A DNA stretch of 64,000 nt from Succinispira mobilis DSM 6222 (GTDB lineage: Bacteria > Bacillota > Negativicutes > Acidaminococcales > Succinispiraceae): contig NZ_KB913028.1 in the NCBI RefSeq assembly GCF_000384135.1, forward strand, positions 833,351 through 897,350, in the 5' to 3' direction. The notes beneath the pieces were generated by a model, which was given only the letters and a program-made list of their open reading frames with translations, made no database searches and was not told where the DNA came from. Position numbers and translations under genes: made by a program. This document shows positions 44,218-50,652 of the stretch, piece after piece. The stretch's first letter is position 1, and each line of letters opens with the position of its first letter.

Positions 44218-45807
44218 ATGACAGGACAACAAAACAGCTTTTTCGGGGATTTATCATTAGACAAAAAAATAGTAACAGCTTTAACAGCTATGGGGTTTGA
44301 AGAACCATCACCAATTCAAAGTCAAACCATTCCCTTGGTGCTTTCTGGTACGGATGTAATAGGACAAGCACAAACAGGAACAGGTAAAACTGCAGCATTT
44401 GGTATTCCGATTATTCAAAATATCGTGGACAACCGTCAATTGCAAGCTTTAATTATGACACCTACGCGGGAGTTGGCAATTCAAGTATCGGAAGAGCTAA
44501 GTAAAATTGGTAAATTCCGCAAAATTAAGGCTTTACCAGTTTATGGTGGCCAGCCAATCGATCGTCAAATCAGAAGTTTGCGTTCTGGAGTACAAGTAGT
44601 AATTGGTACACCAGGAAGATTACTAGATCATATTCGCAGAAACACAATAAAACTTGACCATGTAAAATTCCTAGTATTAGATGAAGCTGATGAAATGCTA
44701 GATATGGGCTTTGTAGAAGATATGGAAACAATAATGCAATCTATTCCTAAAGAACGTCAAACTTTATTGTTTTCGGCTACAATGCCAAAACCAATTATGA
44801 ATTTATCTGCTAAATATATGAATAAACCTAAAGTTGTTGCTGTAAGCAAAGAAGAACTAACAGTACCATTGATCGAACAGTGCTACTATGAAACTTATGA
44901 TAAAGTTGATGGTTTATGCCGTTTGCTAGATGTAGAAGTTACAGGAAAACTAATTATTTTCTGTCGTACTAAAAAAGGCGTAGATGATTTAGTTATTGCT
45001 TTGGCAACGCGTGGTTATTTAGCTGAAGGTTTACATGGTGATTTGAGTCAAAATCAACGTGACCGGGTAATGAAAAAATTCCGTGAAGGGAAAACTGATG
45101 TCTTAATTGCTACAGATGTAGCAGCAAGAGGTTTAGATATTGACAACATTACTCATGTAGTTAATTATGATATACCTCAAGACCCAGAAAGCTATGTGCA
45201 TAGAATTGGTCGTACAGGCCGTGCAGGTAACAAGGGTGTGGCAATGACCTTTATTACTCCAAGAGAATTTAGACAACTGAAATTAATTGAACGAGTTGCA
45301 AAAACTAGAATTATTCGTAAAACTTTACCAACTAATGCAAGTGTATTTGAAAAACAAAAAGATTCATTAATTGCGAGAATGTATGCAGTTTTAGAACAAG
45401 CAAAGTATAGTGATTATCATCCAATTGTAACAGCCTTGCAAGAAGAATTTTCTTTGGAAGATATCGCTGCAGCGGCAATAAAATATATGCATGAAGGTAA
45501 CAAAGCTCTAGAAGTTCAAGCAGAGCCAGTGAAAAAATCATTTAGTAATACTGGTGCCAAAGCTGGGATGGTAAGATTGTTTATGAATATTGGTCGTAGC
45601 CAAAAGATATCTCCAGAAGATGTGGTAAAAACTTTTGCAAGCGAAGCTGATATTCCGGGAAATGTTATTGGCTTAATAAATATTTATGATAAGTTTACTT
45701 TTGTAGAAGTACCTGAAGATATAGCGGAAAAAGTTATTAACGCAATGCATAGAAATAGTATCAAGGGCTATAAAGTAAATATCGAGCCAGCTAAAGCTAG
45801 AGATTAA
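44218..45807 (+). CDS. DEAD-box ATP-dependent RNA helicase (DeaD/CshA type with DbpA-like C-terminal domain)
   Basis: The 529-residue protein has all helicase motifs: Q motif (GFEEPSPIQ), AQTGTGKT, PTRELAIQ, GTPGRLLDH, DEADEM, SATMP, ATDVAARGLD and HRIGRTGRAG. A linker follows, then a DbpA-type RNA-binding domain over the last 80 residues (VRLFMNIGRSQKISPEDVV). It is likely involved in cold adaptation, ribosome assembly or RNA decay. AGGAGGAATATA precedes ATG 44218, 10 bases after cinA. Confidence 0.93.
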   Translation: MTGQQNSFFGDLSLDKKIVTALTAMGFEEPSPIQSQTIPLVLSGTDVIGQAQTGTGKTAAFGIPIIQNIVDNRQLQALIMTPTRELAIQVSEELSKIGKFRKIKALPVYGGQPIDRQIRSLRSGVQVVIGTPGRLLDHIRRNTIKLDHVKFLVLDEADEMLDMGFVEDMETIMQSIPKERQTLLFSATMPKPIMNLSAKYMNKPKVVAVSKEELTVPLIEQCYYETYDKVDGLCRLLDVEVTGKLIIFCRTKKGVDDLVIALATRGYLAEGLHGDLSQNQRDRVMKKFREGKTDVLIATDVAARGLDIDNITHVVNYDIPQDPESYVHRIGRTGRAGNKGVAMTFITPREFRQLKLIERVAKTRIIRKTLPTNASVFEKQKDSLIARMYAVLEQAKYSDYHPIVTALQEEFSLEDIAAAAIKYMHEGNKALEVQAEPVKKSFSNTGAKAGMVRLFMNIGRSQKISPEDVVKTFASEADIPGNVIGLINIYDKFTFVEVPEDIAEKVINAMHRNSIKGYKVNIEPAKARD

Positions 45808-45835: not shown

Positions 45836-47647
45836 ATGGCGGATATAAATGGAAATACCAAAGGTATAAAAAAAACAGTACTAGAAGATTTAGAAAAGTT
45901 ATATGAACTGCAAGTTCCAACTACTCAAATTGCTACAGTGGAGCTGATAGAAAAACTTAGAACTTTAACTAAAATATGTGGACGAGAAATAGTTGTATAC
46001 ATAAACAGGCGTGGTGTGATTATCGATGTGGCTGTAGGTGATGCTAGTACGGCAATCTTAAGCAAAATCGATAGTCGGCGTTCTGTGCAAAGATTAAGTG
46101 GGGTGCGGTGTTTACACACCCACCCTAGTTCTAAAAGCGACCTAAGCGAACTAGATATATCTTCTTTAAAGAGATTACGTTTAGATTGTATGGTCGCAAT
46201 TTCTTTAGAGGCAACTAATTATTTAAGTATAGCTTTTATTGGAGAAGTTACCGCTGACAATGATTATGAAGTTGTTTCTTACAATGGAGTGGATTTGGAA
46301 GATTTTTGTGAATTGAATTTTTCACAATTAATGGAGCGTATAGACAAGACGCTAAGTTTTAATGCGGTAGCAGGATATGCTGTAGAAAAAAATCATGAAG
46401 TAGCAATATTAGTCGGCTTAGAAAATTCTAGGCCAGATAAAATATGGAAAGTTCAAGATTCTTTGGCCGAACTAAAACAATTAGCAGATACTGCTGGGGC
46501 AAAGGTTGTAGATAGCCTTTGGCAAAAACGCGAAAGACCAGATTCGGCATATTATGTAGGTAAGGGAAAGTTGCAAGAGATACAACAGATTTGCCAACAA
46601 AAAAATGCAGATATGGTCATTTTTGATGATGAACTGTCACCAGCACAGCAACGTAATATTGAGATGTTCTTAGGTTTGAAAATCGTGGATCGCACAGCAC
46701 TAATTTTAGATATTTTTGCACAACGAGCGCGAACACATGAAGGAAAGTTACAAGTTGCTTTAGCACAAATGCAATATAATCTACCTAGAATTATGGGCCA
46801 AGGTTTAGTACTTTCACGGTTAGGTGGTGGAATTGGTACCAGAGGACCGGGAGAAACAAAGTTAGAAACTGATCGAAGGTATATTCGCAATAGAATTCAT
46901 GATATCAAAAAAGAATTAGAACAAGTGAAAAAGGTTCGCCAATTACATCGAAAACAAAGAGAAGATACGGGCATTAGACAAGTATCGTTAGTAGGATACA
47001 CAAATGCAGGTAAATCTACTTTACTAAATAGTTTGACGGCTACAGATTCGCAAGTGTATGTAGCCAATAAATTATTTGCTACCTTAGATCCTACGACACG
47101 AAGTTTGCAACTGGAAAATCAACAGGAAGTTTTACTTACTGACACGGTGGGTTTCATTCAAAAATTACCGCATCAATTAGTGGCAGCGTTTCGGGCCACT
47201 TTAGAAGAAGTTTTGTGGGCTGATTTATTGGTTCATGTGGTTGATGTTAGCCATCCGCTTTACAAAGAACAGATTGCATCAGTGAACGCAGTGCTTGAGG
47301 AAATTGGTGTGACCGATAAAAAGTCAATTATAGTTTATAATAAAATTGATTTAATAACTGACACAGGCGTACTACAAGAATTAGTTAAACAAGAAAATAC
47401 TTTATTAATTTCTGCTAAAGCGGCCGCAGGGTTTGTAGAATTAAAGCAACTAATTGCTAATAATTTAAACATGTTATTTAAAAAAGTTTCGTTATTAGTT
47501 CCCTACACTGAAACAGCTATTGTGTCAAAAATACATGATCTAGCCGAAGTTCTCAGTATAGAATATTTAGAGCAAGGCGTGGCCTTGACAGTTAGTATTG
47601 CCGAAGAAAAGCTCCCACAAGTAAGAAATTATTTGGTGCAGACTTAA
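45836..47647 (+). CDS. hflX: GTPase HflX with extra N-terminal JAMM-like domain
   Basis: HflX binds the 50S subunit and splits stalled or hibernating ribosomes. The canonical part starts near residue 185 (ILVGLENSRPD) and has the HflX domain, the GTPase with GYTNAGKST (about 388-396), DTVGF and NKIDL, and a C-terminal domain. At 603 residues it is some 180 longer than ordinary HflX. The extra N-terminal region holds a full JAMM pattern: E51, then H94-T-H96 with S104 and D107 (H-x-H-x7-S-x2-D), as in MPN/RadC-like metal proteins. The function of this part is unknown. The next gene is the aluminium-resistance family enzyme, the usual hflX partner in Bacillus. Confidence 0.93.
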   Translation: MADINGNTKGIKKTVLEDLEKLYELQVPTTQIATVELIEKLRTLTKICGREIVVYINRRGVIIDVAVGDASTAILSKIDSRRSVQRLSGVRCLHTHPSSKSDLSELDISSLKRLRLDCMVAISLEATNYLSIAFIGEVTADNDYEVVSYNGVDLEDFCELNFSQLMERIDKTLSFNAVAGYAVEKNHEVAILVGLENSRPDKIWKVQDSLAELKQLADTAGAKVVDSLWQKRERPDSAYYVGKGKLQEIQQICQQKNADMVIFDDELSPAQQRNIEMFLGLKIVDRTALILDIFAQRARTHEGKLQVALAQMQYNLPRIMGQGLVLSRLGGGIGTRGPGETKLETDRRYIRNRIHDIKKELEQVKKVRQLHRKQREDTGIRQVSLVGYTNAGKSTLLNSLTATDSQVYVANKLFATLDPTTRSLQLENQQEVLLTDTVGFIQKLPHQLVAAFRATLEEVLWADLLVHVVDVSHPLYKEQIASVNAVLEEIGVTDKKSIIVYNKIDLITDTGVLQELVKQENTLLISAKAAAGFVELKQLIANNLNMLFKKVSLLVPYTETAIVSKIHDLAEVLSIEYLEQGVALTVSIAEEKLPQVRNYLVQT

Positions 47648-49204: not shown

Positions 49205-49246
49205 ATATTTAGTAAAGATAAAATTGTAATTAGGGGTGTAAGTTTG

Positions 49247-49705
49247 ATGAAGAAGGATACCGACATGATTGGGTTGAGCGTTTTAAGCGTTCAAGAAGGT
49301 TCGGAAATAGGCACAGTTGAGAGATTATTAGTGGATAAAAAATCATTTTCTGTGGTAGCTTTAGCATTAAGTACTGACAAGTGGTATGAGGATTATAGAG
49401 TACTTAATTTTAAAGATATTATTGGTATGAGTGAAGAACTGTTGACGATTGAACAAGCAAATATCGCACAAATTTGTACTGCATACCCTGCATTTGAAAC
49501 ATTACTAGCAAATACTGTAGAATTAGTTGATAGTAGAATTGTAAGTAAAACTGGTAAAGTTTTAGGTGAAGTAGTTAGTTATACTCTTGATGACACAGGA
49601 CGTATTGCTGAAATTGATATGTTAGATACGGCAGATGAATTAACTACTGTAGCTGGGGACAAAATCTTTTCTATAAATAATAATATACTCATCATCAACG
49701 ATTAA
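49247..49705 (+). CDS. PRC-barrel domain protein
   Basis: The 152-residue protein consists of two PRC-barrel-like units: GLSVLSVQEGSEIGTVERLLVDKK with a YRVLNFKDIIGM continuation, and VDSRIVSKTGKVLGEVVSYTLDDTG. PRC barrels occur in RimM, photosynthetic reaction centre H and many uncharacterised proteins that bind other proteins. AGGGGTG upstream fits ATG 49247 (a TTG at 49244 is adjacent). The next gene is a longer paralogue, which suggests duplication. No signal peptide is visible. Confidence 0.8.
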   Translation: MKKDTDMIGLSVLSVQEGSEIGTVERLLVDKKSFSVVALALSTDKWYEDYRVLNFKDIIGMSEELLTIEQANIAQICTAYPAFETLLANTVELVDSRIVSKTGKVLGEVVSYTLDDTGRIAEIDMLDTADELTTVAGDKIFSINNNILIIND

Positions 49706-49734
49706 AAAGAGCTAAGAGAAAGGAAGTAAGACTA

Positions 49735-50652
49735 GTGAAAAGAGTAACAGATTTTTTTGATTTGGCTGTTCTAGAAATAACTAATGCTAGTGAATTTGCT
49801 CGAGTTGATAAACTCGTAGTAGATAGAATAGCTTTCAAATTGGTTGGTTTTGCGGTAGAAGATACATGTTGGTATCAAGGGAAAAAATATTTAGCATTTG
49901 ATAAATTAATTGGGATTCATGAAGATGTTTTAACAGTAAATTCACAAGCTGATGTAGTGCAACTTAAAGAAGAGCAATATAATGAACTTGCAGCTACAGA
50001 TGTAGAAGTTTTTTTAAGTAGAGTAATAACTCGTAAAGGTAGTTTTATAGGCTATGTTGAGGATTTCTACATTGATGATCAAGGTAATATTATTGCCTAT
50101 GAAATATCTAAAGAAGACAGCCAAGAATATATGTTGGTGGATAAAAAGCAAGTTTGTTCTTTGGGTAAAGATATTTTAGTTTTAGTGGAAGATTTTGAAT
50201 TTACGGTACTTACTGTACCAGAAGACGCTGAGCAACAAGAACTTAATTATTCTACGCCGGCAGAAGAACTTGAAGAGGAAAGTTTTGAACCTAACTTACC
50301 CTTAGAATTACAGCCAGTTGATGGACATGAAGCGGAAGAACAAATATCTTTACAAGATGCAACTAATGCTATTGATGAAGTTGTTGAAGAAGAGGAAGAA
50401 GATGTTGCGCCAGAAGTTCAGTTCACGGCTCCTAAAGCTAAAGAAATAGCTGCTACGGAAGAGCAAGCGCCGGCAGCAAAAATAGAAGATAAGCAAAAAC
50501 AATTTATTTTAGGCAAAACATCTTCTAAGACAATAGTTACAGATAATGGTGTAGTTATTATAGAAGAAGGCAATATGATAACCGAAGAAACAATTCAAAG
50601 AGCAAAGCTTGCTGGCAAATTTATGGAATTGCTCATGAATTTACAACACTAA
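49735..50652 (+). CDS. PRC-barrel domain protein with acidic C-terminal extension
   Basis: This 305-residue protein repeats the plan of its upstream neighbour: DLAVLEITNASEFARVDKLVVDR then VFLSRVITRKGSFIGYVEDFYIDDQG. A long, strongly acidic low-complexity tail (about residues 178-250, with an EEEEED run) and a short helical end (about 280-305) follow. The start is GTG 49735 after AAAGGAAG. It is probably cytoplasmic. It is likely co-transcribed with the first PRC gene and with the membrane protein 3 bases downstream. Confidence 0.78.
   Translation: MKRVTDFFDLAVLEITNASEFARVDKLVVDRIAFKLVGFAVEDTCWYQGKKYLAFDKLIGIHEDVLTVNSQADVVQLKEEQYNELAATDVEVFLSRVITRKGSFIGYVEDFYIDDQGNIIAYEISKEDSQEYMLVDKKQVCSLGKDILVLVEDFEFTVLTVPEDAEQQELNYSTPAEELEEESFEPNLPLELQPVDGHEAEEQISLQDATNAIDEVVEEEEEDVAPEVQFTAPKAKEIAATEEQAPAAKIEDKQKQFILGKTSSKTIVTDNGVVIIEEGNMITEETIQRAKLAGKFMELLMNLQH

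Follow-up and report, generated by a model that had tools for sequence, protein, structure and literature searches.

A predicted RadC-type JAMM domain at the N terminus of the GTPase HflX in Negativicutes and Clostridia

An hflX gene with an additional N-terminal domain

The window we analyzed, the whole stretch of 64,000 nucleotides from Succinispira mobilis DSM 6222, contains an open reading frame on the forward strand (45836 to 47647; the purine-rich AAAGGTGGT lies upstream of its ATG) that encodes an HflX protein of 603 amino acids. Its membership in the HflX family is supported by the equivalog model TIGR03156 (GTP_HflX; E = 1.4e-146, 487.9 bits against a cut-off of 216.75) and by the G1, G3 and G4 motifs. 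The TIGR03156 match is confined to residues 190 to 543, and the earliest of the HflX domains that Pfam recognizes in the protein (GTP-bdg_N, GTP-bdg_M and MMR_HSR1) begins at residue 208. Because HflX homology begins only at about residue 190 or 208, depending on the model, residues 1 to about 185 represent an additional domain, in keeping with the initial annotation, which had described the protein as about 180 residues longer than an ordinary HflX. As delimited here, the gene joins a predicted RadC-like JAMM/MPN domain (residues 1 to 185, 45836 to 46390; AlphaFold, Foldseek and hhalign) to a complete HflX GTPase, whose core (residues 190 to 603, 46403 to 47647) was placed with Pfam, TIGR03156 and the HflX structures 8vkw, 8a57 and 5ady. 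These features and all those described below lie on the forward strand.

The surroundings are those of an ordinary hflX locus. A methionine gamma-lyase family gene lies downstream of hflX in 52 of 79 loci, and the same downstream gene follows HflX without the extension, so the neighborhood offers no clue to a substrate. Upstream, hflX adjoins a gene for a DbpA-type DEAD-box helicase with a DbpA RNA-binding domain (44218 to 45807), which makes two ribosome-related factors adjacent; a DbpA-type cluster stands directly upstream in 12 hflX loci. Two consecutive PRC-barrel genes occupy 49244 to 50652. An ordinary RadC is encoded separately, elsewhere in the genome, next to an mreB-like gene.

Predicted fold and relation to RadC

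The initial annotation had read a JAMM metal motif in residues E51, H94, H96, S104 and D107, all of which are present at those positions, and had placed E51 in a strand-like segment. In the AlphaFold models of the domain (pLDDT 88.6 with a 21-row alignment; pLDDT 90.0 and pTM 0.86 with a 49-row alignment), the JAMM glutamate E51 (45986 to 45988) indeed opens a predicted strand, spanning residues 51 to 57. The predicted metal ligands of H94-T-H96 (46115 to 46123; H94 at 46115 to 46117, H96 at 46121 to 46123) fall at the end of strand 90-95, and the JAMM serine and aspartate of S104-x2-D107 (46145 to 46156; S104 at 46145 to 46147, D107 at 46154 to 46156) fall at the start of helix 105-114. The order of these elements agrees with that in JAMM proteins. 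When we compared the model with the PDB using Foldseek, the top match was the RadC structure 2qlc_A (probability 0.96, E = 2.5e-3); CSN5 and further MPN proteins ranked next, and the 21-row model also matched PfJAMM1 (probability 0.90). No PDB match had an E value below 1e-3, and TM-scores were modest, at 0.2 to 0.5. Against viral models, 14 matches were obtained at E<=1e-3, the named ones among them being for the most part of RadC-like JAB, MPN-domain or minor capsid type, and the viral model library gave matches to RadC-like and MPN-type proteins at probability 1.00. An HMM search of the PDB with the domain profile was weak (the AMSH-LP motif region reached E ~0.9); its BMC-H match (E = 0.0045) covers residues 60 to 100 only, lacks a complete JAMM motif and appears fortuitous.

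The five residues are strongly conserved. Among homologous domains of Negativicutes and Clostridia, 132 of the 141 distinct ones have all five, with one further row cut off ahead of E51, and the residues are invariant both among 37 aligned proteins and in a separate 49-row alignment; E51 is found in 98% of distinct rows. The exceptions among the 141 domains have lost several of these residues together, and such joint change is expected of residues that form one site. The JAMM motif of the HflX N-terminal domain is not a chance pattern.

Profile comparisons likewise point to RadC. Aligned by hhalign with 30 RadC proteins, the domain scored a probability of 94.1% (E = 1.3e-7), with E51, H94, H96, S104 and D107 opposite the corresponding RadC residues (the Glu, HNHP and S-x2-D); controls with unrelated HflX domains reached 0.2%, and shuffled RadC columns stayed below 1%. 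The 49-row alignment gave 92.3%, whereas 60 column shuffles reached at most 10%. Masking the motif columns reduced the probability to 0.8%; the sequence link to RadC therefore rests on the motif, with the fold match as a second support. Against ten Prok-JAB proteins, hhalign gave no significant match (1.6%). Searched alone against Pfam and NCBIfam, the window's N-terminal domain gave only chance-level matches and no usable name, and the Pfam RadC model found nothing in the window protein at E<=10. Across 21 members of the family, weak Pfam matches to Prok-JAB appeared in 17 (best E = 1e-4) and to RadC in 11 (best E = 4.4e-4). In genome searches of 399 genomes, the matches that ranked next after the fused HflX proteins were mostly open reading frames of RadC size (230 to 297 amino acids), several of which coincide in place with matches to PF04002. 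RadC is thus the closest family both by profile and by fold, as an aside in the initial annotation had suggested, and the JAMM/MPN identification itself is upheld by a predicted fold that matches RadC/JAMM proteins first and by the conservation of all five residues among homologs. We consider it almost certain that residues 1 to 185 adopt a RadC-clade JAMM/MPN fold.

Other conserved positions set the family apart. Arginines R81, R82, R86 and R91 are conserved and family specific, and R50 and R58 are conserved as well. The first three belong to a flexible loop (approximately residues 68 to 89) that, by conservation counts and a block of low pLDDT at residues 71 to 80, forms a feature together with R91-C92 (46037 to 46111). 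C92 (R91-C92, 46106 to 46111), two residues ahead of H94 and outside the JAMM motif, is conserved almost without exception (152 of 157 canonical rows), and a redox or metal role is possible for it. A polyanion would suit the conserved arginines next to the site, but the domain as a whole carries a net negative charge (median -4), so that RNA binding is not self-evident.

Distribution and lineages without the metal site

A genome search detected the domain in 76 of 101 genomes of the same class. HflX was found in 79 of the 101, and these include all 76 that carry the domain; three HflX-bearing genomes lack it (G021, G022 and G072), and it occurred in none of the 22 genomes without HflX. Many of those 22, in which no HflX match was obtained, are near-complete (G003, G024, G036, G040 and G044 among others). 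One genome (G005) has two HflX copies, at C1:2319757 and C1:3554441, both with the N-terminal domain. Across the phylum, HflX-fused matches at E<=1e-9 were present in 73 of 399 genomes, in open reading frames of 520 to 702 amino acids except for one cut by a contig end. No standalone version of the domain was found in the 399 phylum genomes or the 101 class genomes. A short open reading frame in G395 (324 amino acids) was ruled out as a standalone domain because it ends at a contig end, and a weak second match in G017, in an open reading frame of 158 amino acids, was not counted as a relative. Near-exclusive fusion of the domain to HflX is strongly supported. RadC itself is widespread among bacteria; of 61 Bacillota genomes sampled, 60 have it.

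When one genome per species was scanned, relatives were encoded in 470 stretches. The best 80 of these came from Sporomusa, Pelosinus, Selenomonas, Phascolarctobacterium and other Negativicutes, and also included Clostridiaceae, Peptococcaceae and Christensenella bins. No close relative was found in viral contigs or phage records, and at that sensitivity the domain is therefore not of a mobile-element kind. Its history may consist of one ancient gain followed by losses, or of several transfers.

In some lineages the domain persists although its metal site does not. HTHP has become YTFN or similar in families f67/f119 (L176, L177, L178 and L180) and FTRL in family f111 (L181 to L184), and the two groups occupy separate clades of an HflX core tree whose deep branches are poorly resolved. 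All eight proteins without a metal site have intact GTPase motifs. Nearly all of the conserved arginines are kept in f67/f119 (positions 50, 58, 81, 82, 86 and 91, some as lysine), whereas f111 keeps R58 and has lost the loop. In one f67/f119 genome (G273, L180), the domain match crosses a stop codon. Judged by their residues, at least two lineages are natural pseudoenzymes. The initial annotation had allowed that the domain might be catalytically silent, and this clearly holds for a minority of lineages, although not clearly for the rest. Given that these proteins have lost the metal site and yet keep both the domain and the GTPase, the domain apparently plays a second role, for which the site is not needed.

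Possible functions and comparison with known systems

A review (PMC12493154) describes HflX as splitting stalled 70S ribosomes, with its N-terminal domain contacting H69, and reports that a short HflX extension in mycobacteria disorders H68, H69 and H71. The identity of the JAMM domain, its conserved metal site, its fusion to HflX and the repeated loss of that site beside an intact GTPase are shown or strongly supported, and the best explanation of the whole, to which we give a probability of roughly 55%, is a RadC-clade JAMM hydrolase carried on HflX that also has a noncatalytic ribosome-binding role. By analogy with the mycobacterial extensions, HflX would take the domain to the intersubunit face of a stalled 70S ribosome or a freshly split 50S subunit, where bound zinc would activate water for the hydrolysis of a ribosome-associated substrate. 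As the substrate, an RNA or nucleotide end near H68-H71, tRNA or mRNA would be somewhat likelier than a ubiquitin-like isopeptide, and a ring of arginines next to the site would bind the polyanion. The same arginines could also provide a noncatalytic ribosome-binding role, which would persist in lineages that have lost the metal site. Since at least two such lineages keep the domain and the GTPase, and one keeps the arginines, the domain probably combines a metal-dependent activity with a separable ribosome- or RNA-binding role. It appears likely that the domain is catalytically competent in most lineages; if it is, we would put the chance that the substrate is a nucleic acid at about even. 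A more specific proposal, that the domain is an active metal-dependent RNA-processing enzyme, brought by HflX to trim or cleave tRNA, mRNA or 23S rRNA during splitting, seems to us unlikely; if true, it would supply the first cellular target for the RadC clade. The lineages without a metal site count against the hydrolase reading, because they indicate that HflX can do without catalysis.

Those lineages instead favor a noncatalytic module that binds the ribosome or a partner and tunes HflX, with zinc in a structural or sensing role, much like the mycobacterial N-terminal extension. Inactive MPN subunits occur in eIF3 and offer a parallel. At least two lineages have dispensed with the metal site but retain the domain and intact GTPase motifs, one of them with its arginines, and the mycobacterial extension acts on rRNA with no enzyme activity known for it (PMC12493154). 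The full five-residue set, however, is maintained in most domains and lost only in concert, and it includes the serine and the glutamate, which are expected for catalysis and not for ordinary metal ligation; as an account of the family, the noncatalytic module is possible but doubtful. Alternatively, the domain might be a JAMM isopeptidase or peptidase that takes off a protein modifier or shortens a ribosomal or nascent peptide as HflX splits the ribosome. The JAB/JAMM domains characterized biochemically act as peptidases on ubiquitin-like proteins (PMC5512222), the Foldseek matches include CSN5, Rpn11, PfJAMM1, BubCD and a bacterial Ubl-deubiquitinase complex, and the motif resembles the AMSH-type HTHP..LS.vD. 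Membership in the RadC clade nevertheless speaks against a ubiquitin-type isopeptidase, since published analyses report no groove for the ubiquitin tail in JAMMs of that clade and argue that these may act on nucleic acids (PMC5512222, PMC3482391). No ubiquitin-like or E1 genes were found among the recurrent hflX neighbors, and the window's genome encodes a single full-length ThiF-family protein. The isopeptidase idea, which had been raised in the initial annotation, thus found no support, and we regard it as rather unlikely. It is also conceivable that the motif arose by chance in an unrelated alpha/beta domain, for example of GAF/IclR-like type, given that beyond the motif there is no significant similarity to RadC and that Foldseek also lists IclR, GAF and CodY folds, with low probability. 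Yet RadC/JAMM proteins lead that list at 0.96, against about 0.3 or less, the motif is invariant across families, and the viral library matched RadC-like and MPN-type proteins with full probability. A chance motif is therefore largely refuted and highly improbable. The reading that we prefer is still the RadC-clade hydrolase with an additional noncatalytic role.

Both the domain and the GTPase are of known kinds, and their fusion, as far as the sequences indicate, is widespread and apparently undescribed. Titles and abstracts yielded no relevant literature linking HflX to JAMM, JAB, MPN or RadC, although unpublished annotation may exist. N-terminal HflX extensions are also noted in several Clostridium and Paenibacilli in the review PMC12493154, the available text of which makes no JAMM identification of the Clostridium extensions. 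There is no agreed function for RadC, and the DNA-repair role first assigned to it is contested (PMC5512222, PMC11981726). With a RadC-type domain fixed to a ribosome splitter, the question of RadC function becomes testable. Across a large part of the Negativicutes and Clostridia, HflX is more than the simple GTPase known from Escherichia coli: it is a ribosome-rescue factor joined to what is predicted to be a metal-dependent enzyme.

The protein shares with ordinary HflX (TIGR03156; E. coli HflX and Listeria lmo1296) the full GTPase architecture and motifs and the downstream methionine gamma-lyase family gene, but ordinary HflX has about 410 to 430 amino acids and lacks the 185-residue N-terminal domain. 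The mycobacterial extension occupies the same end of HflX, although as described in PMC12493154 it comprises 39 to 58 amino acids, has no metal motif described, carries no JAMM assignment and is linked to the disordering of 23S rRNA. RadC (PF04002) has the E, H-x-H-P and S-x2-D elements in register with those of the HflX domain, provides the best PDB fold match (2qlc) and is the nearest non-HflX family in the genome profile searches. The HflX domain, however, has HTHP where classical RadC has HNHPSG and lacks the VLDHIIIG segment, which makes it RadC related and not a RadC protein; it also precedes a GTPase and has its own conserved arginines and C92. JAMM isopeptidases (PfJAMM1, AMSH-LP, CSN5, Rpn11 and Bub) share the metal motif and an MPN-like fold, but they act on ubiquitin-like tails, for which the RadC clade is reported to have no groove (PMC5512222). 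RadC-like DinG (PMC11981726) similarly places a RadC-like JAMM domain N-terminal to a nucleic-acid machine, although its partner is a DNA helicase, whereas that of the HflX domain is a ribosome factor.
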